Positions 1,773 through 43,939 of a DNA stretch of 64,000 nt are shown here, piece by piece. The stretch covers positions 4,322,001-4,386,000 of the forward strand of contig OX639991.1 of the NCBI GenBank assembly GCA_951828585.1, given 5' to 3'. Source of the stretch: Longimicrobiales bacterium (GTDB lineage Bacteria; Gemmatimonadota; Gemmatimonadetes; Longimicrobiales; Gaopeijiaceae). A program made the translations under genes and the position numbers. Position 1 is the first letter of the stretch; every line of letters begins with the position of its first letter. The notes beneath the pieces were generated by a model. That model was not told the DNA's origin and searched no databases. It worked only from the letters and a program-made list of their open reading frames with translations.

Positions 1773-4700
1773 TCAGTTCGGTGTCCTGCGGGGCAGACCG
1801 CGGCTCACGAGGACCTCGGCTCCCCGGTCCTGTGCGGCTGCTTGGCCGGCCAGCGCGGCTGCCCGCCCGGCGGCAGCCTCGCCACGAAGAACCGAGCGGA
1901 TGCGGCCCGTCGCGCGGTCGATGACGATCGCCATCGGGTTGTTGGTCTCGCCGTTGAGTTCGGCCGTGCGCTCCGGCCCCGACAGCACGACGCGGTCGAG
2001 CGAGACGAGCCGCTCCTCCTCGAAGGGGATCATGAACAGGAAGCTCCCGCCGCCCAGCGACAGCTCGTCCATCTCGAACTCCAGGGAGAACTCCGTATTC
2101 CCGGCCGCGCCGAACCCCTCGATCCGGTACGGGCCTGGGCGTGACGGCATCTTCACCGGAGCGTCTAGCACGAACGCGGGATCGAGGCTCAGTTCGCCGT
2201 CCGGGCTGACGCTACCCCATAGGAGCAGACGCTTGGCCCGCCCGCCGCCGGCGAGCACCGCCGCGGCGGATTCGCCATCGATTCTGTACTCGAGCGCCTT
2301 GTTGAAGTGGTAATCGCTAATCCAGGCCGGGTCGCAGTAAGACATCAGGTCCGGGGTCGATGGGGGCACCAGGTCGCCGGACCGGAAGTCATAGCCCCAG
2401 ACCCCTATCGTGCCGTCCCGGTAGGGATAGTTCCCATCGACTTGAGCCGGGCGGCCGCACGGCGCGTGCCGCAGGCTCATGTTGTGGCCCAGTTCGTGGG
2501 CGAACACCGCCGAGTCCGGGATCCCCGCGCTGACGGGTGGCGCGGAGCCCGTTTGGACGTAGGCGATCCCGGCGATTCCACGCTCCCCCTCCCGGATCAC
2601 GGCACCGTAGTAGTATCCGCTGCCACCTTCCGTCTCCCGGAGCAGCGCGATGTCTTGCACGAGTTCCACCCAATCATCGGCGCTCGAAGCTGACGGTGGC
2701 CGGTCGATGGTGAACGGCTCGTGCACCGCCAGCGCGAGATCCGCCACCGGGAGAACCGCTCGCATGAACTCGATCGCCGGGTGCTCCGGCCCCATCCCCT
2801 CCGTCCAGTCCAGCACGCTGCTGTCCGCGCTCGCCGTCGCCAGCACCGGCACCACCGTCAGCTCCATGGTCGGCATCTCCCGCGCGTCCAGCGCCAGCCG
2901 ACCCTCCGCCGGCACCCTGAACACGCTGCCCTCGGTTCGCGGCACCACGCTGTCGGGATCGATCTCGACCACCATCTCGAGGCCCGGGCGAAGCACGCCG
3001 GCCGGGACCAGGGCGTGGAACGATTCGTCCGCCCGCCCGAGGTTCAACTCGCCAGGAATGCCCCGGGGCGATTCCAGGCGCATGCCGGCCGAGTGGATCT
3101 CCCGGCCGCCCTGGATGAACGAGACCCGCGCCCGCGGCTGGTGGTTGTTCGCTTGGTCGGCAACGGCGAAGACCCGCAGAAGCGCCGGACGGCCCGCGAT
3201 CAGCGGCACATCGCCCTCGGCGCTCTGCGCCCCCTGCGTGAGGTGCGCCACCGGCAGCGACACCACGGGCCCCGGCCTGCAGTTGCGTCCGGCGGCGTGC
3301 GCCGGAATCGAGGCCAGCCATTTCTCGAAGCTGCTCCTCGGCGGCGCGCACGCCCCGCTCTCGTTCCAGCGGAATTCCGAGAGGCTCAAGGCCGCCAGCG
3401 AGTTGGGGAGCCTGCCCTCGAAGCGGTTGTGGGCCAAACCCAGCCGCCGGAGGTCGAACAAGCCGCCCAACCACCCGGGCACCCAGCCCGCCAATACGTT
3501 GCGCGACAGGTCCAGCTCCTCGACATCCGCCAAGTCACCTAGCTCCCGCGGCAGGGTGCCGTCCAGGCGGTTGTCGGAGAGATCCAGCAGCCGCAGATCG
3601 AGCAACCCTCCGACTTCAGCGGGAAGCGCGCCCGCCAGACCGTTCGCCGAGAGGTCCAGGCCGGTCAGGGAGCCGCCTGAGGCCGTCACGCCGTGCCACG
3701 CCGACACCGGCTCGTCCGTCAGCCAGTTGGCGTTGTTGGTCCAGTTCGGTCCGTCCGTAGCCTCGTAGAGCGCCGTGAGGGCTTCGCGCGGAGCCAGGAC
3801 GCAAGTCACGTCAAAGTCAGTATGACTCGCAATGGTCGCCAGCCACGCCTGAAAATCGCGGTCCCAGGGGGCGCACAGGCCCGTGCCGTACCACGTGAAG
3901 TGAGTGAGCGGCAGCCCGATCAGCTCCCGCGGCAAGGCGCCGGCCAAGTCCCGGTTCCAGTTGATACTGAATATCTGGAGGTTGCGCAGCATGCCGAGTT
4001 CCGGCGGGATCACACCCTCCAATCGGTTGAGAGCCAGATCGAGTTTCTCAAGGACGGCGAGGTTGCCGAGTTCGGCCGGGATCGGCCCGCTCAGGCGGTT
4101 GCCGTAGAGGTGTAGGGACGTGAGGTGAGCCAGCTTGCCGAGTTCCGGCGGGATCGGGCCCTCCAATCGGTTGCTACCCAGCAAGAGAATCTCAAGGACG
4201 GCGAGGTTGCCGAATTCGGCCGGGATCGGCCCGCTCAGGCGGTTGCCGTAGAGGTGTAGGGACGTGAGGTGAGCCAGCTTGCCGAGTTCCGGCGGGATCG
4301 GGCCCTCTAGCGTATTGGAACCGAGGGTCAATCCCTGGAGCATGGGGAGGTTGCCGAGTTCGGCCGGGATCGGGCCGCTCAGGCGATTATGACCCATGTG
4401 CAGGGCAAGGAGGCGATTGAGCTTGCCAAGCTCCGGCGGAATGGGACCCTCCAGTGCGTTTGTGGACAGGCACAGAAACCGAAGAGCGGCGAGCCTTCCG
4501 AGCTCCGGCGGGATCGGGCCACTCAGGCGGTTCCAGTCGAGAAACAATACCTCGAGAGCAGTGAGGTTCCCCAGTTCGGAGGGTATGGGGCCCGTTAGAC
4601 TGCCCTGAAGTATGAGACCTGCCAGGTTGCGGAGGTTGCCGAGTGTGGGCGGAATGGGCCCCGTCAAGATGTTGTCACGGGTCGAAGGCCGCGCGTCTGC

Positions 4701-7130
4701 CGGGACGGACACCCGCAGGTCGACCTGGAGTTTGGTAGAACCTATGAACAACTCGCAATTGCGGGGTCCCGGTGATTGGAGCTCCAGCCAAGTCAGACGA
4801 TCGAGGGCCCCGAGCTCGGACGGCAGGATGCCGGCGAGGTCGTGGAGTTCCAATTCGGTCACCCGGCCATCCGAGTCGGTCCGCACGCCATGCCACGAAT
4901 CCAGGGGCTCGTTGGTGAGCCAGTTCTCGCTGTTAGCCCAGTTCGGGCCGCCCGTCGCGTGGTACAACACCGCCAGAATCTCGCGGTCCGTCAACGGGGC
5001 GCACCGCACGCCCGTGCCCTCGTGCGACGGCATGGCATCCAGCCACCCGCGGAACGCGTCGTCGTCCGGCACGCACAGCCCGGTGTCCGTGTAGTGCAAT
5101 ACCCGCAGGGGGAGCCGCGAGAGCGACGCCGGCAACGGGCCGGTGAGGAGAGCGTTGCCCCCGATCCGAAGCTCGGTCATTCTTGCCAGGTCAACGGACG
5201 GGAGCCGTCCCGTGAGGCCGTTGTGGCTCAGATCGAGGGCAGTCACCCTGCCGAGCGAATCCGCCGTGACACCGTGCCGTTCCCCCAGCCACGCGGTCTC
5301 CCTCCAGCCGTCGGAGTTGGTCCAATCCTCCCCGCTGGCGGCGGCGTAGAGCAGATCGAGCGAGACGAGGTCGACCTCGTTGCAAAGCGGAGGCCTGGTC
5401 CCTACCACGTTCTCGATCCCTTCCAGCCAGATGACGAAAGTAGCCGTGCCCGGAAAGCACAACCCGGAGTTCCAGCCGACCCGCAATTCGCGCAAGGCCG
5501 CCAGTTGCACGAAGCCGGGCGGGACCGGGCCGCTGAGGAGATTGCCTTCGAGCGCCAGAGTTTCGAGGCTGGACAGGCCCCCGAGCTCCGGCGGCATCTC
5601 TCCGGTCAGATTGTTGTAGCTCAGCTCCAGGGAGGCAACACGGCCCTCGCGGTTCGTGGCAACCCCGTACCAATCCCCGAGCGGAGCGTCCGTCAGCCAG
5701 TCCCCGCTGTTGGTCCAGCTTGGCCCGCCGGTCGCGTGGTAAAGCCGTACCAGAGCTTCTCGGTCGGCCTTCGCTGCGGAGACCCTGACCACCGCGCCGC
5801 CGAACACGCTCCCGGAGGCCACCGTGACTCTGGTTACTCCCACACCCGCCGCCACCACCAGCCCCGTCGTGTCCACCGTGGCGACCGATTCGTCGCCCGA
5901 CGACCAAGTGTACTCGGCCGCGGCGACCGCATTGTCGTTCGCGTCGAACGCCTCCGCCGAAAGCCGCAGCGTGTCGCCGATGACGAAGAGGGTCGCGGAG
6001 TCCGGAGTAACCCGTACCTCCGCCACCACCTGCTCGACGGCCACGGACGCCGTCCCCGTCACGCCGTGGGACTTGGCCGCGATCTCTACCGCACCGGCTC
6101 CAACCGCCGCCACCAGACCAGTGCCGTCCACCTTGGCAACACTTTCGTCACTGGACGACCACGTGAACTCGGCATCCGTAACCGGGTGGCCGTTCGCGTC
6201 CACTGCCAAGGCCGCGAGCCTGAGCGTGTCGCCCAGAGCCAGGAGCGTGTCCGCCGCGGGTGTGACCCGTACCTCGGCCACCTGCTGCTCAACCGTGATG
6301 GAGGCTGACGCCTGGACGCCGTCGGTTGCGGCAGCGATGACCGCGCTCCCGCTCCCCGCCGCCGTGACCAATCCAGTGCGGTCCACCGTGGCGACGGCCT
6401 CGTCACTGGAGTGCCACTGGAACTCGGCGTCCGCAACCGGGTGGCCGTTCGCGTCCACTGCCAAGGCCGCGAGCCTGAGCGTGTCGCCCAGAGCCAGGAG
6501 CGTGTCCGCCGCGGGTGTGACCCGTACCTCGGCCACCTGCTGCTCAACCGTGATGGAGGCTGGCGCCGTTGCGCTCCCGGCCGCCGCCGAGATCGTAGCG
6601 ATGCCGTTGTCGACCGCGGTTACCAGGCCGTTCTGGCTCACAGTCGCAACCGTTTCGTCGCTGGAGCGCCACGTGAACTCGGCGTCCGCGACCGGGTGGC
6701 CGTTCGCGTCCACCGCCTCCGCTGTCATGCGCAGCGTATCGCCGAGAGCCAGGAGCGTGTCCGCGGCCGGCGACACCCGTACCTCCGCCACCACCTGCTC
6801 GACGGCCACGGACGCGCTCGCCGCCGCAGTCCCGGACCTGGCCGTGACGCTCGTGCTCCCGTTCCCCACCGCCGTCACCAGCCCCTCCCCGTCCACCGCC
6901 ACAACCGTCTCGTCGCTGCTGGCCCATTGGATCGGTTCCCCCACCATAATCTCGCCGTATTGATCGTGAACCGTGGCAGTGAGCTTGACGTCTTCCCCAA
7001 GCGCCGAAAAAACTGCGGCGGACGGCGAAATCGTGATCGACGACGCGGTCGGTGGGGGCTCCGTCGGCGCGTCTGCACACGCGGCGGCCAGCGCCGCAAC
7101 CAACACGAAGAAACGGCCCGGGCGCGTCAT
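1773..7130 (-). CDS. Giant secreted lipoprotein: five Big_2 domains, four capped LRR blocks, metzincin-like protease domain
   Basis: 1785 residues from the ATG at 7128-7130, chosen because it opens a signal peptide ending in a lipobox (LAAAC at about residues 16-20); the frame extends 42 codons further upstream without a signal. Residues ~29-450 hold five Big_2/Ig-like repeats (each with a SSDE-x-VA-x-V core). Residues ~450-1300 hold four blocks of plant-like LRRs, each beginning with a cap of the form LYxATGGPxWTNxxxW. The C-terminal part has HELGHNMSLRH at about residue 1541 and a Met-turn LMSYC about 40 residues later, as in metzincin zinc proteases, but with Ser instead of the usual Gly in HExxHxxGxxH. 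Likely surface-anchored and acting on external protein. The upstream promoter region is an IS1380 fragment. Confidence 0.85.
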   Translation of the reverse strand: MTRPGRFFVLVAALAAACADAPTEPPPTASSITISPSAAVFSALGEDVKLTATVHDQYGEIMVGEPIQWASSDETVVAVDGEGLVTAVGNGSTSVTARSGTAAASASVAVEQVVAEVRVSPAADTLLALGDTLRMTAEAVDANGHPVADAEFTWRSSDETVATVSQNGLVTAVDNGIATISAAAGSATAPASITVEQQVAEVRVTPAADTLLALGDTLRLAALAVDANGHPVADAEFQWHSSDEAVATVDRTGLVTAAGSGSAVIAAATDGVQASASITVEQQVAEVRVTPAADTLLALGDTLRLAALAVDANGHPVTDAEFTWSSSDESVAKVDGTGLVAAVGAGAVEIAAKSHGVTGTASVAVEQVVAEVRVTPDSATLFVIGDTLRLSAEAFDANDNAVAAAEYTWSSGDESVATVDTTGLVVAAGVGVTRVTVASGSVFGGAVVRVSAAKADREALVRLYHATGGPSWTNSGDWLTDAPLGDWYGVATNREGRVASLELSYNNLTGEMPPELGGLSSLETLALEGNLLSGPVPPGFVQLAALRELRVGWNSGLCFPGTATFVIWLEGIENVVGTRPPLCNEVDLVSLDLLYAAASGEDWTNSDGWRETAWLGERHGVTADSLGRVTALDLSHNGLTGRLPSVDLARMTELRIGGNALLTGPLPASLSRLPLRVLHYTDTGLCVPDDDAFRGWLDAMPSHEGTGVRCAPLTDREILAVLYHATGGPNWANSENWLTNEPLDSWHGVRTDSDGRVTELELHDLAGILPSELGALDRLTWLELQSPGPRNCELFIGSTKLQVDLRVSVPADARPSTRDNILTGPIPPTLGNLRNLAGLILQGSLTGPIPSELGNLTALEVLFLDWNRLSGPIPPELGRLAALRFLCLSTNALEGPIPPELGKLNRLLALHMGHNRLSGPIPAELGNLPMLQGLTLGSNTLEGPIPPELGKLAHLTSLHLYGNRLSGPIPAEFGNLAVLEILLLGSNRLEGPIPPELGKLAHLTSLHLYGNRLSGPIPAELGNLAVLEKLDLALNRLEGVIPPELGMLRNLQIFSINWNRDLAGALPRELIGLPLTHFTWYGTGLCAPWDRDFQAWLATIASHTDFDVTCVLAPREALTALYEATDGPNWTNNANWLTDEPVSAWHGVTASGGSLTGLDLSANGLAGALPAEVGGLLDLRLLDLSDNRLDGTLPRELGDLADVEELDLSRNVLAGWVPGWLGGLFDLRRLGLAHNRFEGRLPNSLAALSLSEFRWNESGACAPPRSSFEKWLASIPAHAAGRNCRPGPVVSLPVAHLTQGAQSAEGDVPLIAGRPALLRVFAVADQANNHQPRARVSFIQGGREIHSAGMRLESPRGIPGELNLGRADESFHALVPAGVLRPGLEMVVEIDPDSVVPRTEGSVFRVPAEGRLALDAREMPTMELTVVPVLATASADSSVLDWTEGMGPEHPAIEFMRAVLPVADLALAVHEPFTIDRPPSASSADDWVELVQDIALLRETEGGSGYYYGAVIREGERGIAGIAYVQTGSAPPVSAGIPDSAVFAHELGHNMSLRHAPCGRPAQVDGNYPYRDGTIGVWGYDFRSGDLVPPSTPDLMSYCDPAWISDYHFNKALEYRIDGESAAAVLAGGGRAKRLLLWGSVSPDGELSLDPAFVLDAPVKMPSRPGPYRIEGFGAAGNTEFSLEFEMDELSLGGGSFLFMIPFEEERLVSLDRVVLSGPERTAELNGETNNPMAIVIDRATGRIRSVLRGEAAAGRAAALAGQAAAQDRGAEVLVSRGLPRRTPN
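4047..4307 (-). repeat. Near-exact 117-bp duplication inside LRR coding region
   Basis: Bases from 4047 to about 4163 recur from 4191 to about 4307 with one visible mismatch. The 144-bp offset equals two 24-residue LRRs, indicating recent in-frame expansion of the third LRR block. Confidence 0.8.
6181..6562 (-). repeat. Exact 127-bp duplication inside Big_2 domain coding region
   Basis: Bases 6181-6307 and 6436-6562 read as identical over 127 bp, 255 bp (85 codons) apart. This equals one Big_2 domain period, so the domain array appears to have grown by recent unequal recombination or slippage. Confidence 0.85.
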
Positions 7131-7256
7131 TAGGCCAACGTCCGGTTGCGCTTGGGAAAGCAAGCGTTCCTCAAGAGGCTCGGATCCGCGCGGACGCGTA
7201 GTGCGCAGGACCCGTGTGTAGTCTGCGTCCCTAACAAAACAAGTCTTCCCATCCAA

Positions 7257-7535
7257 CCCACCTTATTCACGAGCGGTCTGGAAGTGAGGTGACGTGAGGC
7301 GGCAAGTGCTTTAGATTCAATGTGTTACAGTAATCGCGAGCACCTACCAGCCATCACGTCGGGGGTGAAGATAGTGGATGCGCCGTTCAGCTTCAACTCA
7401 GGTCGATCAGGATCGGGTCCCGCCAGGACCGGATCACGGGGGATTCGGGGGCTCTGACGGGGCGCGAGCTGATGAGGCGCAGCAGGGTGGCGCGGTTTCT
7501 GGCGAACGGGCTGCCGGACAAGCGGGACGGGCGCC
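7257..7535 (+). mobile_element. IS1380-family left-end fragment
   Basis: About 280 bp closely matching the left end of the complete IS1380 element at 27590-29358, including the CCTTATTCACGA terminal repeat and the first part of the transposase reading frame. A 2-base insertion at the Phe-Asn codons (relative to the full copy) breaks the frame, and the fragment stops abruptly at GGGCGCC, where beta-propeller sequence begins. It is a dead remnant. Confidence 0.8.
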
Positions 7536-7795
7536 CAGCGCTACCCTCCACCTTCCCCACCTACAACACGCTCATGGTTTTCGGCGATCGCATCTGGGTC
7601 AAGCATTTCCGCCGACCTGGAGAACCGGAGCATCAGTGGCTCGCGTTCGACGCCGACGGCACCCAGGTCGCTACCATGTTCCTGCCGTCGCGTTTCGTCG
7701 CTCAGCAAATCGGCTCTGATTGGGTGCTGGTTCTCATAGCCGATGAGCTCGGGGTCGAGAGGCTGGTCGTCTACGCTCTGGTCGAAGACCCGTGA
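7472..7795 (+). pseudogene. 3' fragment of a beta-propeller gene fused to IS1380 sequence
   Basis: The last ~85 codons (from about 7545) resemble the C-terminal blade of the six-bladed propeller proteins further right: a D-R-I-W-V-K-x-F-R-P core, a W-L-A-F-D strand, then D-W-V-L-V-L-I-A-D-E-x-x-V-E, as in the end of the protein at 10864-12255. The first ~22 codons come from the IS1380 transposase frame. The propeller gene has therefore lost its whole 5' part. It stops 40 bp before the convergent chimeric ORF. It is probably not functional. Confidence 0.65.
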
Positions 7796-7835: not shown

Positions 7836-9491
7836 CTAATCACCCGGCCTCAACCGCAGATCCAGCCTTCCAATGTGTTCCCCCGTGGGGATCACCATCG
7901 GGTACTGCCGCGTCCGCAATTCATTGGCGTCCAACTCGTCGAGACCCACACCCTCCATGGGGAACTCCACACCGCCCACGACCAGCGGCTCGGGGCGCGC
8001 CTCGTCCCGGCACATGTGGTCGACGATCCACGCCACCGACGGGGCCGAAAAGTGGACCTCGACCGGCGTCTCGGCGTCGGCGTCCACCTCCACCTCGACG
8101 GGTTCGGAAACGTAGCCGAACGCCTCCAGATAGGGATGGGTGAAGTTGACGGCATAGGTCCCCGGATCCAGCCAGTTCAGCTCGAATCCGCCTTCTCGGT
8201 CGGTAAGCGACCGGATCCCGGTTCGCTCGACAAAGACCCGGGCACCGGGCAGACCCGCCCGCAGGGTGTCGAGAACCGATCCGACTATCCGGCCCTGGAG
8301 GCCCGACGCGAGCATCGCGTATCCGCCTCTCCCGTGGATCCGGAGGTGCGCGGCCACCCGGCGGTACTTGTGGAAGATCTCGACGGTCTGGGCCGTGATC
8401 CGAACGTCGACCTCGCAGCGGCCCAGCGGGTGGGGGACGCTGTAGAGCGCGTGCTCGACCTGGATGTGGTAGTCGATGTTGACCCGCGCCTTGCGCCACT
8501 CCGCGTATTCGTAGCGCTCGTCCGGGAGCGGCTTGAGCGCCGGCCGGTCCAGATCCTCGAACCAGCTGCGCCGGCTGCCTTCGGTCTTGTCGAACGGCCG
8601 CTCGTTCAGCGCGGCCAGCAGCGGCGCGATGGCCTCGCGGAGTTCGCGGAGCGAGAAGAACGTATGGTTGCGCAGCGGCGCCATGACCCAGCGCTCGACG
8701 TGTTGGACTGCGGTTTCCGCCTTGGCCTTGTCCCTGGGTGCCCGGGGCCGCGCCGGCAGCACCGCGGTTCCGTAGTGGGTGGCCAGTTCCTGGTACGTCG
8801 GGTTCAGGTCCGGCTCGTAGCGGCTGGCCTTGTGGACCGCCGCCTTCTCGTTGTCCGGGATCACGAGTTCCGGTACGCCTCCCCAGAACTCGAACATCCG
8901 GACGTGCGACATCGTCCAGTCCGGCAGCGACCGGCTCCGGGTCACGTCCACGAAGGTGTGGTTCGACGCGCCGAGGACACCGACGAAGACCATGATGTCC
9001 CGCGCCTCGCCGGTCTCCCGGTCCACGACCTCGAACTTCGGGCCCGCGTAGTCCACGAACGCCTTCTCGCCCGCCCGGTACACCTGCCGCATGACCACGT
9101 CGATCCGTCCCCGCCACGCCCTGTAGCGCTCGCAGAACCAGCTGTACCCGTAGCCGTTCGCATGAACCGTCCGGTACTCCAGCCACAACAGCTGCAGCGT
9201 CACGCCCTTGTGGCGTTGAAGCTCCCGGTGGACGTCTTCCCAGTTCGGCTCGGGCCGGGGAACCCGCGACGGTGGCGGGGCCGGGAACAGCGCCGCTTCC
9301 AGCGCGGCGTCGTCCAGCCCCTCCGGCAACGGCCAGGAGAAGCCCCCGGCGCTTGCCCGCCGCACGTAATCGCTCACCGTGCTGTTGGCGATGCCGAGCG
9401 ACGTGGCGATCTCGCGGTGGCTGCGCCCGACCTCGTACTTCAGACGCAGCAGTTCTCGAATCTTCCGCATGGACAACCTCTTCTGTGACAT
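7836..9491 (-). pseudogene. Chimeric ORF: truncated IS21 IstA fused in frame to a carboxypeptidase-regulatory domain fragment
   Basis: 551 codons, open throughout. The first ~390 residues are nearly identical to the intact IstA at 45945-47504: an N-terminal HTH (REIATSLGIANSTVSDYVRR), the DDE core with FVDYAG and VPELVIPDNEKAAV, and the start of the C-terminal beta domain. Near base 8312 the sequence switches to an unrelated ~160-residue tail with a CarboxypepD_reg-type beta sandwich (PGARVFVERTGIRSLTDREG, then DPGTYAV). The tail is the 3' end of a secreted-protein gene like that at 24985-26400. istB is absent, so the element cannot move by itself. Expression of the fusion is unknown. Confidence 0.8.
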
Positions 9492-9681
9492 CCTCTTTCC
9501 TCCTCGTCTCAGGGGGACCTCTGGCGAGGATGGAAGAGGGTGTCGCTACAGCAGGTTCTCCAGCGCTCCTACTCGCTCACTCCAGGGTGATCGGCATGCT
9601 CCGGAATCCGTGATCGGCATGCCCTGGAATCGGTGATCGGCATGAAATGGAATCACTGATCGGCATGGGCCGGAATCAGCA
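8313..9681 (-). mobile_element. IS21-family remnant (right end retained, istB and left end lost)
   Basis: Homologous to the right ~1.4 kb of the complete IS21 element at 44727-47692. It keeps the outer end, with four copies of TGATCGGCAT spaced about 20-23 bp apart, finishing in GGAATCAGCA at 9681. Immediately beyond that end lies the interior of a parA gene, so the original insertion was in parA. The missing left end means no target duplication can be checked. Confidence 0.85.
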
Positions 9682-10281
9682 CTCGGCAAGACGACCCTGG
9701 CCACGGCAATGGCCGTCGCCCACCAACAGGAAGGCGGGCGGGCGGCCATCGCCGACCTGGACCCGCAAGGCTCTGCCGTCGCTTGGCATCACTTCCGGGA
9801 TGGTGAGCCGCCGCTGGTGGCGGCCGTTCACCCCCCGCGGCTCGGGCGGTCCCTCCAGACCTTCCGGAGCCGGGACGTGAGCCTCGCGCTCATCGACACC
9901 GCTCCACACGCTTCCGCTGGAGCGCTGGCGGCTTGTCGCCTGGCGGACCTGGTGCTCGTCCCCTGTCGGCCATCCACCCCCGACCTGGCCGCCATCGGCG
10001 CGAGTCTGGAAGTTGCCGCGCTCGCTCGGGCGGACGCCGCCGTCGTCCTCAACGCCGTGCCCCCGCGAGGATCCCTGGCCGTTGAGGCGGCTGATGCCAT
10101 CACGGGCATTGGCGCTCGCGTTGTCCCCGTCACCCTCGGGGCGCGGATCGCTCACGTCCACGCTTTTACCCTCGGGCGCTCCGCACAGGAATACGCGCCT
10201 CACGGAAAGGCGGCCGCCGAAGTCCAGACGCTCTACCGCTGGGCTTTTACACAGCTCCACAAGGGAGGAGAGAGAGAATGA
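9682..10281 (+). pseudogene. 5'-truncated ParA-family ATPase gene
   Basis: Nearly identical to the intact parA at 15531-16166 but missing the first ~13 codons, which carried the start and most of the deviant Walker A box; only GKTT of it remains. The loss coincides with the IS21 end at 9681. The longest in-frame start left is an ATG at 9709, after the P-loop, so any product would not bind ATP. The reading frame is otherwise open to its natural stop. Confidence 0.85.
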
Positions 10282-10863: not shown

Positions 10864-12255
10864 TCAGTGACCGGTTGCGCCGCCCCTGTGATCGCCAGCG
10901 GAGCAGCTGGCCCGTCCCACCATGTCGTAGTACGCTACGGACTCGACGTCCAACTCGTCCCGTTCGATCAGAAGCACATAGTCATCGCCAATGTCTAACA
11001 CCGCCGCTCCGGCAGGCACCGCCAACGCGCACGCCAATGCCCCGGACGAGTCGAACCCGAACCATGTGTTGGTGCGAACACCCGGCGGCCTGAAGTTCCG
11101 TACCCAGAGGCGCCGGTCGCTCCCGACGAGGAACCTCGAGTACAGACGCGCCGAATCGGGGTAGGGATATGCCTCGAGTGCCCGGCGAACGTCTCTAAGA
11201 TACCGACCATCCCTGTTCGGGTCCCTCGCCACCGACCCCTCGATCCGCGTCCGGATCATCTCGTCCGTGACCGGCAGGCGCTCCACGTTCCAACGCACGA
11301 TCGTCGCAAGCCGGCCTTCCGAGTCGATCAGTTCGATCTCCGCCCTGCTTCCTTCGCCAACCGCAGCAACCGGCCCCCACGGCACGGCCATGCCCATCGG
11401 CGCGAACGGCACCACAACATCCGTGGGGAACGGCCCGATCTCCGTGGGAAGAACAGTCTCAGCCCACTCGATCCCTGCAACCCTGCCAATCGCCCGTTCG
11501 CGGCTGCCATCCGCCCCGAACCTGTGAAACACCAGCGTGTCTCGCCACGACGAACGCCGGACCGGCCTGACACTCCGTTCATCGATCACCTCCTGCGACC
11601 CCAGTGCAAGGATCTCCTCCATCAGATACCCGCCCGCGAACCTGCCGAGTGCGCTCGATCCGAGCGCCAGTTCCCGAGTGTTTGCGGTCAGCGAGGAAAC
11701 CTGGGCCCCCGACGGACCGAACACCTTGAGCCGCTTCACGCTGTGCTCCCACGTTTCCACCCGCCCGTCGTCCAGAACGAACAGCCGCATGAGGTTGGCA
11801 CAGGCTCCCACCACGAACTCCCCGGGCCCCTCACCCTCGCGGCCCGTGCCCGTGATGTAGACGCCCGTGCTGTCGTACCATCGCAGAATCGGAGGCATAC
11901 AGTTGGCGACGACGATGCGTCCGTCCGCAAGTACTCGCGCCTGAGCGACACTGTGCAGGATATACGCGTCCTCGCCTGTTGCCACCCCGATCCGCACGCG
12001 GGGCCGGAGCGAGAGAACAAGCGTGCTGCCCGGAAGATCCGACACCACGACATTGACGCCGGCGCTGTCGTAGCGCTGCTGCTCCGCCGCCGCGGTAGCC
12101 CAAGCCCATGCGCCCGTGGCACCGGCGATCCAAACGCTGGCCAGAACTCGTAGCCACCATCGCCCCGGCGGCGAACCCTGCGGCGCCAGCAACGCGTTGG
12201 AGGTCTCAGTACCCCCGCAGTCCGGTGTGTTCCGGGGTCTGTACCGTCTCTGCAT
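10864..12255 (-). CDS. Exported six-bladed beta-propeller protein
   Basis: 463 residues. A hydrophobic segment at about 33-58 acts as a signal peptide or anchor; a start nearer that segment is possible. The rest is a chain of propeller blades with typical strands (ARVLADGRIVVAN, the G-R-E-G-E-G-P-G-E-F loop at ~138-147, VWVRNF-type ends). This glycine-rich loop marks the six-bladed propeller family common in Gemmatimonadota and Bacteroidota secreted proteins; ligands are generally unknown. It is the last gene of a three-gene minus-strand operon, 22 bp after the second propeller gene. Its C-terminal blade resembles the fragment at 7545-7795. Confidence 0.75.
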   Translation of the reverse strand: MQRRYRPRNTPDCGGTETSNALLAPQGSPPGRWWLRVLASVWIAGATGAWAWATAAAEQQRYDSAGVNVVVSDLPGSTLVLSLRPRVRIGVATGEDAYILHSVAQARVLADGRIVVANCMPPILRWYDSTGVYITGTGREGEGPGEFVVGACANLMRLFVLDDGRVETWEHSVKRLKVFGPSGAQVSSLTANTRELALGSSALGRFAGGYLMEEILALGSQEVIDERSVRPVRRSSWRDTLVFHRFGADGSRERAIGRVAGIEWAETVLPTEIGPFPTDVVVPFAPMGMAVPWGPVAAVGEGSRAEIELIDSEGRLATIVRWNVERLPVTDEMIRTRIEGSVARDPNRDGRYLRDVRRALEAYPYPDSARLYSRFLVGSDRRLWVRNFRPPGVRTNTWFGFDSSGALACALAVPAGAAVLDIGDDYVLLIERDELDVESVAYYDMVGRASCSAGDHRGGATGH

Positions 12256-12277
12256 TCCCTGTATTCTCTTGGTCCGG

Positions 12278-13405
12278 CTACCGGGACAAACCTACAGCAG
12301 CAACGATGGTGTGCGCGCTGCCGTCCGCATCGATCCAAGTCCGCCAAATACGGCCGGGGCCGACGAACCCGGACCAACTGCCCTCGAGCCGCGTGCTCGC
12401 GACCAAGGTCCCCCGAACCGGGTCGACCAGCTCCAGCACCGTGTCGTGGTAGCGACCGCCCGGACGGATCATTCTGTTGCCCATCGGATCCCGGAGCGTG
12501 TCAAGCGCTTCCTTCCATTCCGGCGCGGCGATCCCGAAGAGCATCCAAACACCCAAAGTGTCCGCGGCCAAACCCACTGTGAACGTCTCCGGCGCGCGGT
12601 CAAGCGATCTCACTCTCGATCGGTGCACCCAAGGATCGAACCACTCGCGTTCGCCCACAAGCTCCGCAACCCTGTGTCCATCGAAGGTCCAGCGCTCCAA
12701 ACGCCATTCGTTGATCGGGGCCGCCCAGAACGACGGGCCGCCCGTACTGGCAAGCCGCCGCAGCAATAACGACATGAGGTCCCTCCTGAACGCGGGTTCC
12801 TCAACTCCGAAAGACAACTTCCACTCTCCTTGGCCGTTGTAGACATGTAGAGGAAACCCGGCCGCGTCACGTGTGGCAATTGGCCCGGCCGCCACGAATC
12901 GCGACGAATCGAACGCCAAGTCCCAAATGAAGCGCCCCTCAAGGCGGTGTCGCTGGACGACTGTTCCGCTCGGAACCTGCAAGACCAGCCGCTCCCCACG
13001 ACCGGCGTCCATCACATGTAGTCGCCCTTGCAAGTCCATCGCGATCGCGCCGAAGCGGCCCCCGGATCCTTCCGGTCCGCCAGGAGAAACCGTCGCCGCG
13101 TGCGAGCCGTTAGCCCGGAAGACATGCAGCGCAGCATGGTCGCCATCGAACACGGCGTATGTGTGGCCGGTCTCGGGATCCCGCACCAAGCTCTCTACCA
13201 ACCGCCCCTGCAGATGGGCGGGCAGCCCCCCGAGCCACACGGTATCCGCAAGCACGATCCGGCACTCGGGACATTCGGGGTGACCACGAACAGTGGCAAC
13301 CTGCCCGAGCAAAACTTCGGGCAAAACGACCATCCCACTGATCGTCCCGACCGAACCCAACAGCCGGAGCCATGTCGAGACGCGTGGCTCGGGAAGGCGC
13401 ATCAT
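12278..13405 (-). CDS. Exported beta-propeller-like protein with CPEC motif
   Basis: 375 residues with an N-terminal hydrophobic signal segment (about 13-34). Just after the cleavage region comes GHPECPECRIVL, a CxxC pair that may bind metal or form a disulfide. The remainder shows blade-like beta repeats (YAVFDGDHAALHVF, GRLHVMDAG, GVWMLFG). The start overlaps the stop of the upstream Cys-rich gene by 4 bp, so the two are translationally coupled. The CPEC motif is missing from the next propeller in the operon. Exact ligand and role are unknown. Confidence 0.65.
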   Translation of the reverse strand: MMRLPEPRVSTWLRLLGSVGTISGMVVLPEVLLGQVATVRGHPECPECRIVLADTVWLGGLPAHLQGRLVESLVRDPETGHTYAVFDGDHAALHVFRANGSHAATVSPGGPEGSGGRFGAIAMDLQGRLHVMDAGRGERLVLQVPSGTVVQRHRLEGRFIWDLAFDSSRFVAAGPIATRDAAGFPLHVYNGQGEWKLSFGVEEPAFRRDLMSLLLRRLASTGGPSFWAAPINEWRLERWTFDGHRVAELVGEREWFDPWVHRSRVRSLDRAPETFTVGLAADTLGVWMLFGIAAPEWKEALDTLRDPMGNRMIRPGGRYHDTVLELVDPVRGTLVASTRLEGSWSGFVGPGRIWRTWIDADGSAHTIVAAVGLSR

Positions 13406-13993
13406 ACTACCTGTCCGACGTAAATCTCATACGAGGGAGGGACGGGCACATGAGCCACAAGCACTCCCTCGCATCCGAACACTTGGAGCGCCCGACGCTC
13501 ACTGTTCCACTCCACGTTCCCGTAGCCAGAGGCTAGAACCTCCGGATCCGGGCCGCTCCCATACCGGATCGCGTCCCACAACCCGGCAAGATCGTCAGCG
13601 GACGTTGCGAGCGGGCTGTCATCATCCTGGTGCTGCATTATGCAGGCGTCAGACCGATGGTTGTCCATGCATGTTCCGGGCAAACAATTGCTGTGCCAGT
13701 CCTTACCTTCGCCAAACGGACCATTCGGATTGATCGTGGCGATATGACCTAGGCCTCCAGTCCCCGGAATAAAGCAGGGACTGCAGATTCCGCATGGCAT
13801 CGAATTGTCGGCCCACGGCAGATCGGCGAGCCGAAGGCGACCTTCCGCGTCCAACCACGCCTCGAAGCTAACGGCCGCGATCCGAGGGTCTGAAGGGATG
13901 GTCCCGGGGGTCGGACTCTTTGGTGGCGGCTGCCAAAGCCAGACCCACGACGGGGAGGAGGGACAGGGACAGGATGCTTCTGCGGTTCGTCAT
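13402..13993 (-). pseudogene. Cys-rich exported protein, single-base frameshift after the signal peptide
   Basis: The reading frame opens at an ATG at 13991-13993, 6 nt after GGAG, and encodes a signal peptide (NRRSILSLSLLPVVGLALA). That frame stops after ~40 codons. One base over, the frame continues as a Pro-rich linker and a 150-residue domain with seven cysteines (PCGICSPC, NCLPGTC, DACIMQH, FGCEGV). The frame changes between about 13905 and 13935, by an indel or sequencing error. The last codons overlap the propeller gene downstream. I do not recognise the family. Small exported Cys-rich proteins directly upstream of propeller genes recur in this window (40349-42406). Confidence 0.55.
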
Positions 13994-14257
13994 CATGATC
14001 TCCAGTGAGAGAAACACGGTTTGCGGCCGGTTCCCGCGTGAGACCGACCATGTGATACGAATATGCGAACGGCGCGCCGATTCCGCAAACACACACTCTC
14101 TCTCTGTGGAAACCTCCAAGAGGACTTGTGGCCCGCGGTCCCGTGATGATAGGCGAGCCGGGGCGGGAGCAGAACTTCTTCCGCGAGGGGGCGAGGGTGG
14201 GCCGACCCTGGTGTTCCTGGCGCGTCCGCGCTCTCCGGGCGGCCCTTAGACGCAGCC

Positions 14258-14923: not shown

Positions 14924-15691
14924 ATGACCGAGCAACCCACCACATTTCCCACCGTCGTTCACGTCCACAACACCAACTACGCGACCGCGGCCGCAGCCGC
15001 GACGGCCCAGGCAGCCGCCGTTCCGCCCGCTCGCAAATCCATGATCGGCGGCCCCGGGCAACCCATCACCATCCACTACGAGCGGGCGGAACGAACCACT
15101 CCTCTTGAACCCCTCCCCCTCTCCTGGTGGGATCATCCTCGCGCCAGACTCCGGATCCTTCCACCCGGGGGGCACCAGGCCGCGCTCTCCTACCTGCACG
15201 ATCTCGCGGGTGCCCACCTCGCGGGCGTTCCCAACCGGCCCACCGCTCAAGACCTCGCGCTCATCTTCCGCTCGGCCGACCCGTCCCCGACCGACCGCGA
15301 CGTGCTTCGGCAACTCCTTGCGGCCCTTCCCGCCCCCCGCTTCAAGAGCCTCCGCACCCTCGGGGGCGTCTCACTCTATGAGATGGCGCGGGCCGTTCAC
15401 GTCACAGGATCCCGCCGCAACGCCTTCATCCGCTGGCTCCATCGGTTCGCCGTTCCGCCGAGACCCGGACGGCCACCCCGTTTGACCCCCCCCCTTGTGC
15501 CCCAACCTGCTAGACTGCTAAACTGCTACCATGCACGCTATCGCGTTGATCTCGCAGAAGGGCGGGTCCGGCAAGACGACCTTGGCCACGGCTTTGGCCG
15601 TCGCCCACCAACAGGAAGGCGGGCGGGCGGCCATTGCCGACCTGGACCCGCAAGGCTCTTCCGTCGCTTGGCATCACTTCCGGGAGGGTGA
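14924..15691 (+). CDS. Hypothetical protein upstream of parA
   Basis: 255 codons, with an ATG about 6 nt after AGAGAGG. The N-terminus has a Thr/Val/His stretch and a long Ala-rich helix (about 20-34). The middle (about 85-185) is helical and contains ALSYLHDLAGAHLAG and RSADPSPTDRDVLRQLLAAL. No known family. The reading frame continues 160 bp into parA, so the true C-terminus may be extended by a lost stop, or expression may be coupled to parA. A set of CTAAACTG repeats ~80 bp upstream matches those at the parA start, suggesting shared control. A role in plasmid maintenance is inferred only from position. Confidence 0.45.
   Translation: MTEQPTTFPTVVHVHNTNYATAAAAATAQAAAVPPARKSMIGGPGQPITIHYERAERTTPLEPLPLSWWDHPRARLRILPPGGHQAALSYLHDLAGAHLAGVPNRPTAQDLALIFRSADPSPTDRDVLRQLLAALPAPRFKSLRTLGGVSLYEMARAVHVTGSRRNAFIRWLHRFAVPPRPGRPPRLTPPLVPQPARLLNCYHARYRVDLAEGRVRQDDLGHGFGRRPPTGRRAGGHCRPGPARLFRRLASLPGG
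15500..15530 (+). promoter_or_regulatory. Operator-like tandem octamers CTAAACTG at the parA start
   Basis: CTAGACTG (15510-15517) and CTAAACTG (15518-15525) run directly into CTACC and the parA ATG at 15531, so the repeats occupy the place where a ribosome binding site would be. Partition operons are usually autoregulated by their centromere-binding or ParA protein, so this is a likely operator (inference). Confidence 0.55.
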
Positions 15692-16166
15692 CCCGCCGCT
15701 CGTGGCGGCCGTTCACCCTCCCCGCCTGGACCGGACGCTCCAGACCTTCCGGAGCCGGGACGTGAGCCTCGCGCTCATCGACACCGCTCCACACGCTTCC
15801 GCTGGAGCGCTGGCGGCTTGTCGCCTGGCGGACCTGGTGCTCGTCCCCTGTCGGCCATCCACCCCCGACCTGGCCGCCATCGGCGCGAGTCTGGAAGTTG
15901 CCGCGCTCGCTCGGGCGGACGCCGCCGTCGTCCTCAACGCCGTGCCCCCGCGAGGATCCCTGGCCGTTGAGGCGGCTGATGCCATCACGGGCATTGGCGC
16001 TCGCGTTGTCCCCGTCACCCTCGGGGCGCGGATCGCTCACGTCCACGCTCTTACCCTCGGGCGCTCCGCACAGGAATACGCGCCACGCGGGAAGGCCGCG
16101 ACCGAAGTCCAGACGCTCTACCGCTGGGCTATCACCCAGCTCCACAAGGGAGGAGAGAGAGAATGA
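15531..16166 (+). CDS. ParA-family partition ATPase
   Basis: 211 residues, the length of the short ParF/ParA type Ib partition ATPases of plasmids. The deviant Walker A box KGGSGKTT is at residues 10-17, a second conserved Asp lies in DLDPQGS (about 40), and a Walker B-like strand LALIDTAP (about 80) follows. Such proteins bind nucleoid DNA and, with a small centromere-binding partner, separate plasmid or ICE copies. The stop overlaps the start of the ribbon-helix-helix gene (ATGA), the standard partner position. Operator-like repeats abut its start. A truncated near-identical copy lies at 9682-10281. Confidence 0.9.
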   Translation: MHAIALISQKGGSGKTTLATALAVAHQQEGGRAAIADLDPQGSSVAWHHFREGDPPLVAAVHPPRLDRTLQTFRSRDVSLALIDTAPHASAGALAACRLADLVLVPCRPSTPDLAAIGASLEVAALARADAAVVLNAVPPRGSLAVEAADAITGIGARVVPVTLGARIAHVHALTLGRSAQEYAPRGKAATEVQTLYRWAITQLHKGGERE

Positions 16167-40192: not shown

Positions 40193-40348
40193 CGCCGCCG
40201 GGGTGAACTGCCCCTGTCGTTGACTTGACGTGGGGGATGGCTGGCGCTACTGTTCCGACCATACCTTGTCTGTAGCGGCCCTTTCTTTCCGCCAATGGAT
40301 TGCTTCCGGGCCCAATCGAAAACCCCTTCCCACTACGGAGGACAGGTC

Positions 40349-40993
40349 ATGAACAAGGTGCTGTTTGGTTTCGTCGCACTCATGGGCACAGCCTTTGGGG
40401 CGGTGCCGCAATTCAAAGCTGATTCGCCCCCGGATGCGTCGCCAGGCGTTCCAGAGTGTGAGTTGGCGAAGCAATGGGTCGCGGATAACCTGGACGCCCT
40501 GCCGACAACGCTCGATGCTTTCAGCGAGCACTCCATCACCTTCCGCCGGACCATCTACAGCGCGCTCGATACCGATGTCCGGATATCGCTTTGGCGGGAG
40601 CACCTCGCTGGCGTGGCCCACGAGGTCGAGTCGCCCCATCAGCGTCTCTTCCTGAGTGAGGTATCGCGCGATCTCAATCGTTATGTGCAGAGCACCACGC
40701 CACGCTTTGAAATCGAGGCGCTGGGGGAGAAGGCGGTGGCGGTTCTCGGGAGAGACCTAACTCACCGGGCCCTGGCAGCACTCGGCCCGGACCCCGAGTC
40801 AACAGAGGTGGGGAGTTTGCCACCGGACCCGGACTGCTATTGTAGCACTGAGAGTGACTGGTGCAATGCTTGGCGTTTGCCTTGGCAGCCCAAGAGTCAT
40901 TGCGTTCTGGGTTCGTGCGAAGAGCTCGACGGCTGCGGCTTGTTCCTGCAATTCCGATGTGATGGCACTTGCCACAGGATTGTGGCTCAGTAG
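40349..40993 (+). CDS. Fulvocin C-like bacteriocin precursor
   Basis: 214 residues, ATG at 40349 with CGGAGG 7 nt upstream. Signal peptide at about 1-18. A helical middle region WVADNLDALPTTLDAFSEHS, then RRTIYSALDTDVRISLWREH, resembles the propeptide of fulvocin C-related bacteriocin proteins. The C-terminal ~52 residues carry eight cysteines (163, 165, 172, 185, 190, 196, 204, 208) in a CxCST-SDxC ... GCG ... C pattern like the mature peptide fulvocin C of Myxococcus fulvus, known to have four disulfides. Proteolytic release of the Cys-rich C-terminus is inferred. First gene of an operon with a propeller lipoprotein and an ABC transporter. Confidence 0.8.
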   Translation: MNKVLFGFVALMGTAFGAVPQFKADSPPDASPGVPECELAKQWVADNLDALPTTLDAFSEHSITFRRTIYSALDTDVRISLWREHLAGVAHEVESPHQRLFLSEVSRDLNRYVQSTTPRFEIEALGEKAVAVLGRDLTHRALAALGPDPESTEVGSLPPDPDCYCSTESDWCNAWRLPWQPKSHCVLGSCEELDGCGLFLQFRCDGTCHRIVAQ

Positions 40994-41395: not shown

Positions 41396-42406
41396 ATGAG
41401 CATGATTCTGAGCGTAGTCGGTGTGACTCAATTGTGTGCCGGGTGTACCGTGGCGTTCGAACCCTCGGATACGCTCGGCGGGAGAGACGACCCGGCAGGT
41501 CCAGGAGTTGTCGCGGAAGTTCTGAAGACGGGCGATGGTGGATACCTCATGAGTTCCGATCTTCTCGGTGGCGTAGTGGTCGTCTACGACTCGGAGGGGC
41601 GCTTCCAGCGGGAGTTGACCCGTGAGGGTGACGGGCCGGGCGAGCTACGCGGGTTTCCGGAGTTCGCCATGGGTCCTGGAGGCATCCTGGTTCACGAACA
41701 GTTCGCGCCCTCGCTGCATTTGTACTCAAGCGACCTCGATTTCATCAGGACCTTCCGCGTTCCTGGGGTTCCCGGCTCGGTCCAGCCGGATCCGGTGACC
41801 GGGGGTTGGCTGGTCAGTTACATGGGAGCCGGCGACGGCTCCGAAGCGGGGATCCACCTTCTCGATCAGCGCGGGGAAGTGGTGCGGACAATGCCGGTCG
41901 GCGAGGAGTCTTCCAGTTTGAGCCTTATGGCAGGGGATGCGATCCGCGGCACGGACGGCAGGATCTGGATCGCCTCGATGCTGGGGGTGGTTGAGGTGTT
42001 CGACGAGAACCTCGAACTCCTGGGCTCCCTGGAACTGCAACTTCCCGGGCTCGCCGAGTGGAGCCCTGCCACCGGGCCCGCTGCTCCGCCAGCTATGGTA
42101 CTCGGCATGCGACCGGCGCCCGATGGATCGGGAGTCTGGGTCTTTGCGTTCGCGCCGGTCATCGACCCCGCAGAGAAACGGCGCTCACAGGGCCCCCGAC
42201 CACCGGTGGAGGAGGAGTTTGATACTTTCGTCTACTCACTTCGCCTTGACCCGAGCGGCCTGACACTGGTGGGAACGGATCAGCTGGACACCTTGGTGCG
42301 TCCGTTGGGTGACGGAGATCTTGCCTACGACCTGGTCGAAACGCCGGACGGAAACCGGAGGGTGCGGATAGGACGATTGCGCTTCGCAAGGACGGAAAGC
42401 CGATGA
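41396..42406 (+). CDS. Six-bladed beta-propeller lipoprotein of the bacteriocin operon
   Basis: 336 residues. The short hydrophobic N-terminus ends in LCAGC (lipobox Cys at 17). Blades are marked by GGVVVVYDSEGRFQRELTRE, the GDGPGELRGF loop typical of six-bladed propellers, GRIWIASMLGVVEVFD and GSGVWVFAF. The protein is probably outer-membrane anchored. Similar propellers accompany the Cys-rich protein at 13402-13993. In this operon it might bind the secreted peptide, confer immunity or assist maturation; none of these is shown. It starts ~400 bp after the precursor gene and is followed 34 bp later by the ABC ATPase. Confidence 0.75.
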   Translation: MSMILSVVGVTQLCAGCTVAFEPSDTLGGRDDPAGPGVVAEVLKTGDGGYLMSSDLLGGVVVVYDSEGRFQRELTREGDGPGELRGFPEFAMGPGGILVHEQFAPSLHLYSSDLDFIRTFRVPGVPGSVQPDPVTGGWLVSYMGAGDGSEAGIHLLDQRGEVVRTMPVGEESSSLSLMAGDAIRGTDGRIWIASMLGVVEVFDENLELLGSLELQLPGLAEWSPATGPAAPPAMVLGMRPAPDGSGVWVFAFAPVIDPAEKRRSQGPRPPVEEEFDTFVYSLRLDPSGLTLVGTDQLDTLVRPLGDGDLAYDLVETPDGNRRVRIGRLRFARTESR

Positions 42407-42440: not shown

Positions 42441-43154
42441 ATGAAGCACTCCCAACCGGCTCCGGTTCAGTTCCGCGACCTGTCGATCGGATACGGTCGG
42501 GACCAGCCGGTCATGACTGGACTCACCCTTGATGTTGTGCCCGGGGCCGTGCTCGCGATCATCGGCCCCAACGGATCAGGCAAGACTACTCTTTTTCGCA
42601 CCTTGCTGGGCATTCTGCCTCCCCTCAGTGGCGAGGTTTCGGTGTCCGGCCTGTCACCGACGGAGTATCGGCGCAGACACGGCATCGGTTACCTGGCTGA
42701 AGACACCGCCCTGCCCGACAAGTGGAGCTGTGAGGGGATCCTTACCCTGGCTGCGGCTGCCGCCGGGCCCGATGCGGATGTGCCCAACGCGGTGCGACTG
42801 GCAGGTGTCGACTACGCGACCGATATCTCCACCAACGCGCTCTCCAAGGGGATGAAGCGCCGCCTGGCACTGGCAGTGGCTCTCATGCGACCGACCAGAT
42901 TGCTCATCCTGGACGAACCCGAATCCGGACTTGATCCAGGCCAACGCCACCGGCTGCGTCGGCGCATCGATAGTATTCGCAGCAGCATGACGATCCTGGT
43001 GGCTAGTCACGATCTCGGTGAACTTGCGCTGATGAGCGACCATGTGCTGCTCATGGAGCACGGACGCGGCAGGCTCGTCGATCAGCCGGACGGGGGGTTC
43101 ACCCGCCATTTCCTCGAACAGGAATTCCTCCGGCTGGAAGGGGCGGTGTCATGA
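42441..43154 (+). CDS. ABC transporter ATP-binding protein (bacteriocin export or immunity)
   Basis: 237 residues with all ABC ATPase motifs: Walker A GPNGSGKTT at 42-50, Q-loop region YLAEDTALPD, a variant signature LSKGMKRRLALA, Walker B LLILDEPESGLD and the switch His in LVASHDLGEL. A short, DrrA-like stand-alone ATPase that pairs with the membrane subunit encoded next, whose start it overlaps by 4 bp (ATGA). The canonical LSGGQ is replaced by LSKGM. It lacks the peptidase C39 domain found in many bacteriocin exporters, so either another protease cleaves the leader or the pair provides self-protection. Confidence 0.9.
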   Translation: MKHSQPAPVQFRDLSIGYGRDQPVMTGLTLDVVPGAVLAIIGPNGSGKTTLFRTLLGILPPLSGEVSVSGLSPTEYRRRHGIGYLAEDTALPDKWSCEGILTLAAAAAGPDADVPNAVRLAGVDYATDISTNALSKGMKRRLALAVALMRPTRLLILDEPESGLDPGQRHRLRRRIDSIRSSMTILVASHDLGELALMSDHVLLMEHGRGRLVDQPDGGFTRHFLEQEFLRLEGAVS

Positions 43155-43939
43155 CCATCGTGCAAGCGACGCTCAAACACCTTCTCCGCCGCCGGTGGAA
43201 GCTCCCGCTGGCCGTATTCCTTTGCGGCGTAGTATTGGTGGGACTGCACCACGCTTTCGATGTGGACGGGATACGCGAGGTGTATTCCGAGGCGATTCGA
43301 CAAGATCCGGCTTCCAGGTCATCGGAGCAGGTTGAGGCGATCACCACGTGGGGGCGAATTGGGCCGATTCGCTCGACGCTCGACGCGGCCCTCCTCATAG
43401 GCCCTTTCCTGGTGGGATTGCTCATGCCAGGAGGCGTGGTCGCCAACGAGCGGCGCAGCGGTGCCATCATGCTCTGGGCCCAGCACCCGATGTCGCTGAC
43501 ACAGTTCTACATGCACCGCTATGTGGGTATCCAGATCGCGAACCTGGGCGGGCAGGCCCTGATCGGCGTTTCCTACCTCCTCTACCTGACATTGCCGCCG
43601 GATACCGCTACATCAATGGAGCGGTTGCCGGAATCCTGTCTCCACGGCCTGCTCGGCTGCGCGATCAGCTTCGCCGTTTCCGCCCTCGGTATCCGGCGGG
43701 CCTCCTTCCTGGTGTTTGCATACTACGTCGCATCGAGCATGACGAATTCCCCGAACCTGAGGGATGCATTGACGGCCGTGTCGGACGTGCTCCCCTTCCT
43801 GATCTTTCCAACAAGGATGATCAACGATTCCATGATGGGTTTCGGCGCCACCGGCCTCGTCCTGTATCACTTCCTCCTGTGGACAGCAGTGGCCTGGCTG
43901 GGGCTGCGTAAGCTCGAGCGAAGGCCGCTCAAGATTTAG
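43151..43939 (+). CDS. ABC-2-type transporter permease of the bacteriocin operon
   Basis: 262 residues with about six transmembrane helices (near 17-34, 75-97, 122-142, 155-178, 183-200 and 235-253). GGVVANERRSGAIMLWAQHP in the second loop is characteristic of ABC-2-type permeases and contacts the ATPase. The gene overlaps the ATPase gene by 4 bp. It ends 130 bp before the IS630 element; no clear terminator is seen. Together with the ATPase it forms a transporter for export of, or resistance to, the fulvocin-like peptide (inference from the operon). Confidence 0.8.
   Translation: MTIVQATLKHLLRRRWKLPLAVFLCGVVLVGLHHAFDVDGIREVYSEAIRQDPASRSSEQVEAITTWGRIGPIRSTLDAALLIGPFLVGLLMPGGVVANERRSGAIMLWAQHPMSLTQFYMHRYVGIQIANLGGQALIGVSYLLYLTLPPDTATSMERLPESCLHGLLGCAISFAVSALGIRRASFLVFAYYVASSMTNSPNLRDALTAVSDVLPFLIFPTRMINDSMMGFGATGLVLYHFLLWTAVAWLGLRKLERRPLKI

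Follow-up and report, generated by a model that had tools for sequence, protein, structure and literature searches.

We identified a family of small Cys-rich proteins in Gemmatimonadota whose genes stand beside genes for beta-propeller proteins; as judged from its sequences, the family is undescribed and predicted to be exported. One copy lies on the minus strand of a 64,000-nucleotide stretch of Longimicrobiales bacterium (positions 4,322,001 to 4,386,000 of contig OX639991.1, assembly GCA_951828585.1), here called the window. A same-strand propeller gene is found directly upstream or downstream of all 54 family genes examined, and it is nearly certain that the Cys-rich protein and its propeller form a functional unit. 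The data suggest that both proteins act together extracellularly. We propose, with a probability of roughly 0.4, that they make up an exported two-gene module in which a CxxC motif of the propeller is the thiol partner of a spare Cys in the small protein.

Within 10864-13996 of the window, the minus strand reads signal-peptide piece, seven-Cys piece, CPEC propeller and second propeller, in that order. The features of the operon, with a further propeller fragment outside it, are as follows.

13868..13996, minus strand: signal-peptide piece (MMTNRRSILSLSLLPVVGLALAAATK...), in a frame different from that of the seven-Cys piece and terminating at a stop
13402..13890, minus strand: Cys-rich domain piece with 7 Cys, a family member; continuous frame with its stop at 13402
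13402..13405, minus strand: ATGA overlap of 4 bases, formed by the stop of the Cys-rich frame and the start of the CPEC propeller
12278..13405, minus strand: partner (CPEC) propeller, 375 amino acids, recognised by motif and AlphaFold2 fold
13262..13273, minus strand: CPEC motif, residues 45-48 of the partner propeller, opening the first predicted strand (48-57)
10864..12255, minus strand: second propeller, of the common type without an N-terminal CxxC (propeller profile E 1.9e-56)
7334..7795, plus strand, opposite to the operon: propeller fragment (propeller profile E 7.7e-15)

An earlier note on the window had described a Cys-rich exported protein with seven Cys directly upstream of two propeller genes with coupled starts, a CPEC motif in one of them, and a third propeller fragment near 7.5 kb. 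The Cys-rich frame and the CPEC propeller overlap in the ATGA, 22 bases separate the end of the CPEC propeller from the start of the second one, and both propellers, the motif and the fragment are where they were said to be. The seven Cys are also present, in 13402-13890, but the exported protein is not encoded in one open frame. The signal-peptide frame begins at an ATG at 13996 or 13993 and stops at 13868-13870, and the earliest start in the seven-Cys frame is a TTG at 13852-13854, with no ATG or GTG upstream of it. Because the signal peptide and the seven-Cys domain are in different frames, the window copy cannot yield an exported protein unless the sequence is wrong. Since homologues elsewhere are intact and have signal peptides, this copy of the gene looks broken or affected by a sequence error. 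The operon is flanked by two ParA-family copies (9684-10281 and 15569-16166; 95% identity over 300 nt). In the first copy the N-terminal Walker A part is missing, and beside this copy, at 9586-9700, is a 23-base tandem repeat with a GTGATCGGCATG core.

The 54 family genes include all 11 from the window's own genome, the rest coming from 25 other genomes of the phylum and one named metagenome contig. They were counted as 46 genes (47 open reading frames (ORFs), one gene being split and counted once), six more, and loci L183 and L215. The locus of every family match row was examined with a propeller profile derived from the propellers in the own genome. This profile missed the window partner (12278-13405), which was recognised by its motif and fold. 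L215 serves as a useful blind test: no match to the propeller family DUF5128 (PF17170) was listed there beforehand, yet a CxxC propeller directly follows the family gene. Propellers could be so abundant that any gene may adjoin one, and the own genome does show an unusual expansion, with 125 DUF5128 matches in 4.47 Mb. A DUF5128 match lies within 1 kb downstream of 8 of its 10 family genes in this test, against never more than 3 of 10 in 20,000 random placements. The pairing also holds in five genomes with just 6, 8, 7, 10 and 13 DUF5128 matches, where the chance is 0.2-0.5% per gene. Given the random placements and these propeller-poor genomes, chance adjacency was rejected; its probability is close to nil. 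The earlier note had proposed that the pairing is repeated and had named homologues lying mostly away from propellers as the observation that would speak against it. The pairing does exceed chance, and the homologues behave in the opposite way. That propellers recognise or process the Cys-rich proteins, as the note went on to suggest, is conjecture.

Gene order is not fixed among the 38 pairs used for a distance test, with the Cys-rich gene first in 24 and the propeller first in 14. Across these pairs the distances among the Cys-rich proteins track those among their propellers (r 0.745; the best of 5,000 permutations reached 0.215), which shows that the two are inherited together. The neighbourhoods are otherwise little alike. 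The gene cluster that ranks next in frequency is present at 6 loci, and a neighbour-cluster count over the loci, made with a codon-based gene finder retrained for this high-GC DNA, found no transporter, processing, metal-related or accessory gene recurring beside the pair. The literature listings searched contained no account of this pairing.

An initial protein search of 298 genomes of the phylum gave matches in 12, weak apart from the window itself. With the family profile, 10 members came up in the own genome; over the 298 genomes there were 53 match rows, spread over 26 genomes and 13 of 119 genera. An eleventh own-genome member (L215) was found later with an improved profile. Within the own genus, 10 of 18 genomes carry the family. 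The named members are Gemmatimonadota (8_bin.26, SS_bin_81 and Candidatus Palauibacter poriticola); L012 (G297), not recovered by the family profile, was set aside. Intact homologues are about 150-230 residues long. Their N-terminus is hydrophobic, the middle is rich in Cys and His, and a C-terminal stretch follows the pattern R-x3-Q-x3-C. Among 39 aligned members, C41, C80 and C88 never vary, and conservation reaches 90% or more at C38, H52, H70, H84, R132, Q136 and C140; no Trp is near-invariant. Besides the window, broken copies occur at L071, where the frame is lost before the last Cys, and L072, which is split in two. A short exported Cys-rich ORF (L099; GCQTCW...CIFC) upstream of a propeller at G000:C1:356748 is possibly a decayed member, and that propeller carries a single motif Cys.

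None of 13 family members scanned against Pfam gave a match at E <= 0.01, NVEALA (PF14055) included, and an NCBIfam scan of family members returned scattered weak matches only; toxin families gave no match in either scan. For the window, 13402-13854 has no NCBIfam match at E <= 1, which leaves it outside the fulvocin C-related family NF033852 (35-bit cut-off). A small-protein profile had no significant match in the PDB (best E 0.46). The pairing that the earlier note wished to see surveyed in Gemmatimonadota and Bacteroidota holds in the former. In Bacteroidota the family was found in 0 of 198 sampled genomes and in Acidobacteria (the phylum of G313) in 0 of 297, in each case among the candidates scored; across these and the Gemmatimonadota searches, scoring in many genomes covered only a portion of the first-look candidates, and the absences are not proofs. 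A strict DNA motif, estimated to occur in about 6 of 40 members, was found in 30 stretches of the genome contigs, 3 of them family genes, all Gemmatimonadota. The family was found in none of the 27 genomes behind the other stretches, and no member was found on plasmids.

The number of Cys in the small protein is odd. Counted after the hydrophobic stretch in the 47 ORFs, there are 7 in 32, 5 in 8 and 9 in 3, an odd number in 43 of 47. The other four ORFs (6, 2, 3 and 8 Cys) are a broken copy, both halves of the split gene and one frame with an unplaced start. Five further members have 7, 7, 7, 7 and 9 Cys (odd in 5/5); the incomplete frames of L155-L157 were left out, and the counts are non-independent because the members are homologous. 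In the alignment, C3 and C4 are both present in 29 of 40 rows and both absent in 10, the remaining row being misaligned. Read from these sequences, the joint loss of C3 and C4 is the pattern of a putative disulfide gained or lost as a unit, with one Cys always left over. The left-over Cys is the near-invariant C-terminal one in R-x3-Q-x3-C.

The AlphaFold2 model of the window's partner propeller is of moderate quality (mean pLDDT 58.7) and resembles six-bladed NHL propellers (Z 16-17), with Brat (5ex7) at Z 17.4 and an rmsd of 3.8 over 258 residues. This points to a predicted six-bladed-type fold, an all-beta propeller with blades uncounted. The two Cys of CPEC are the only ones in the protein, and C48 opens the first strand in the model. 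Against DUF5128 (cut-off 22.9 bits), 12278-13405 gives no match and the second propeller, 10864-12255, scores below the cut-off at 12.5 bits. Partners elsewhere usually carry a C-x2-C (sometimes C-x1 to C-x4) immediately ahead of the first strand, at the start of blade 1, e.g. CAECVITLDTLVTIGG. From reading the translations, the two-Cys motif is present in 39 of 50 distinct partners (32 of 42 from the main locus set, 6 of 6 at further loci, L215 yes, L183 no). Exactly two Cys are found from the motif onward in 28 of 42 partners.

The motif is rare in other propellers. Among 98 own-genome DUF5128 propellers in a random draw of 60 of 79 clusters, most have no CxxC, and many appear lipoprotein-like on reading; the motif, also classified by reading, is present in 12, or in 8 of the 94 that are non-partners. 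The 'CC' flags of L098, L106 and L133 in this survey were set aside as signal-peptide or upstream Cys. In the own genome alone it is present in 10 of 10 partners vs these 8 of 94. Fisher tests for enrichment give 1.9e-17 for all loci and 1.7e-9 for the own genome, values that are indicative because the comparison set holds DUF5128 matches only and the partners are related to one another.

On the thiol-partner proposal, both proteins would cross the inner membrane by means of signal peptides. The small protein would have 2-4 disulfides, or a core of metal-bound Cys and His, at the centre of its fold, keeping one extra near-invariant Cys in its C-terminal strand, and the partner propeller would usually be free of Cys apart from the N-terminal CxxC at the start of blade 1. 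The two would meet outside the cytoplasm, where the CxxC may exchange a disulfide with the spare Cys or hold it. The propeller would then be a thiol partner devoted to this one protein, as its holder, foldase or receptor. A physical complex of the two is likely. Thiol exchange between them is plausible; we infer this link because the propeller usually has no other Cys and the small protein has one to spare.

Several observations weigh against this proposal. The two-Cys motif is missing from 11 of 50 partners, some with one Cys and some with none. At L078, L084 and L091 at least, the propeller has no N-terminal motif Cys and the small protein still has an odd number, so the spare Cys cannot depend on a CxxC everywhere. 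Eight own-genome CxxC propellers lack an immediately adjacent family gene; one of these propellers is about 745 bases from such a gene, and one has a transposase-like gene upstream, on reading. Most fulvocin-related proteins carry an extra N-terminal Cys even with no CxxC propeller nearby. The window propeller, CxxC notwithstanding, matches no thioredoxin-type or DsbB-type domain in Pfam or NCBIfam, and the three near-invariant His of the small protein are as compatible with metal binding as with disulfides. The distance correlation weakens to 0.27 when distant pairs are taken by themselves. For the small protein, the AlphaFold2 model (pLDDT 39.5, four sequences) was unusable and was set aside.

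Part of this evidence bears on other explanations. The small protein may be a secreted antagonist that hits other cells, with the propeller shielding the producer or docking the protein. Antagonist systems could account for the high number of strongly divergent copies in a genome (11 in the own one), the patchy presence within the genus (10/18) and the broken copies (window, L071, L072). They would also fit the parallel with fulvocin-related genes accompanied by an ABC transporter; fulvocin C acts on other cells. The varying gene order (24 vs 14), the lack of any recurrent transporter or processing gene at the loci and the lack of a toxin family match argue the other way, and we regard this explanation as rather unlikely. 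The other main rival, likewise unlikely, is a metal site or metal hand-over, in which the conserved Cys/His set of the small protein, together with the propeller CxxC, would bind zinc or copper or pass it on in an extracytoplasmic setting. The near-invariant C38, C41, H52, H70, C80, H84, C88 and C140 are ligand-like and both partners contain a CxxC, but the pairwise loss of C3 and C4 and the odd total in every intact copy counted are typical of disulfides, several partners have no CxxC, and no metal-related neighbour recurs.

Alternatively, the CxxC would be only a structural disulfide that pins the propeller N-terminus, the pair being held by ordinary surface contacts. The start of the first strand is a plausible site for such a clamp and some partners do without the motif; its concentration in partners (39/50 vs 8/94 in propellers of the same general fold) is left unexplained, which makes this account decidedly improbable. 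The pairing yields a testable two-protein system in which the key residues are the propeller CxxC and the C-terminal Cys of its partner. Gemmatimonadota genomes can carry more than 100 propeller genes, and one motif-defined subset of these is now tied to a concrete partner.

A second Cys-rich/propeller locus, which the earlier note had set in parallel with the operon, lies further along the window.

40295..40993, plus strand: fulvocin C-related Cys-rich exported protein (NF033852 E 1.1e-21, 78.3 bits, cut-off 35)
41396..42406, plus strand: propeller of the fulvocin-like operon, N-terminal CAGC (propeller profile E 1.7e-19)
42441..43154, plus strand: ABC transporter ATPase (NCBIfam scan)
43151..43939, plus strand: following gene, possibly an ABC permease (no NCBIfam match)

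Elsewhere in the own genome, two further fulvocin-related genes flank one CVGC propeller (L154). The parallel is a partial one. Of the 10 fulvocin-related genes in the phylum sample, four have a CxxC propeller beside them (window, two at L154, and L194), and all four belong to the own genus. The own-genus L193 and five genes elsewhere have none near. A general rule joining fulvocin-related proteins to CxxC propellers was rejected on this count.

The window also contains two IS21 transposases (7836-9491 and 45945-47504; 94% identical over 398 residues), the first continuing in frame into a carboxypeptidase-regulatory-like domain. Two ORFs at 26593-30727 correspond to adjoining portions of the same large anti-phage proteins (ProA, Hhe), and between them lie plus-strand ORFs (27707-29127) that resemble a gene recurring at other loci, a transposase on reading; this is probably an interrupted defence gene. 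A very large exported protein at 1773-7256 has repeated domains, leucine-rich-like repeats and, on reading, a HELGH motif near its C-terminus.

Compared with known families, the fulvocin C-related proteins (NF033852) resemble the new family in being small, exported and Cys-rich, in having an odd number of Cys on reading the translations, and, in the own genus, in standing beside a CxxC propeller (CAGC, CVGC or CGGC). They differ in that there is no sequence match, the extra Cys is N-terminal rather than C-terminal, and 6/10 genes are without a CxxC propeller. CxxC-only propellers might represent a novel kind of extracytoplasmic thiol partnership, in which they exchange disulfides specifically with secreted one-spare-Cys proteins from two families unrelated in sequence (the new one and, in a single genus, the fulvocin-related one), an idea that we hold tentatively and consider somewhat doubtful. 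The DUF5128 propellers share their fold class with the partners, many of which match PF17170, but the window propellers fall below its cut-off and an N-terminal CxxC is rare in those surveyed (12/98). NVEALA peptides (PF14055) of Bacteroidota, matched in 1 of 60 genomes, are also small, exported and Cys-containing. At L212 (738-2258, Bacteroidales), such a peptide lies by a lipoprotein-like CTRC protein, a possible second case of a Cys peptide beside a CxxC protein. On reading, the CTRC neighbour is no propeller, and no sequence relation of NVEALA to the new family is shown.

Methylamine and quinohemoprotein amine dehydrogenases combine a small Cys-rich exported subunit with a beta-propeller subunit and derive their cofactor from a conserved Trp. 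The new family has no near-invariant Trp and its loci no recurrent accessory genes, and an amine-dehydrogenase-like subunit was rejected on the lack of a conserved Trp in the 39 aligned members. A known precedent for a CxxC combined with a propeller is DsbI, described in PMC4460558 as a DsbB-like oxidoreductase with a periplasmic beta-propeller; that paper also cites a dedicated oxidoreductase pair for one substrate. Like the partner propeller, DsbI joins a CxxC to a propeller, in an extracytoplasmic thiol system. The CxxC of DsbI is in the DsbB-type membrane domain, while in the present case it stands at the first strand of the propeller itself, and no match to a membrane domain was obtained. 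If the thiol link is true, these propellers would be an unexpected addition to the known dedicated disulfide systems.

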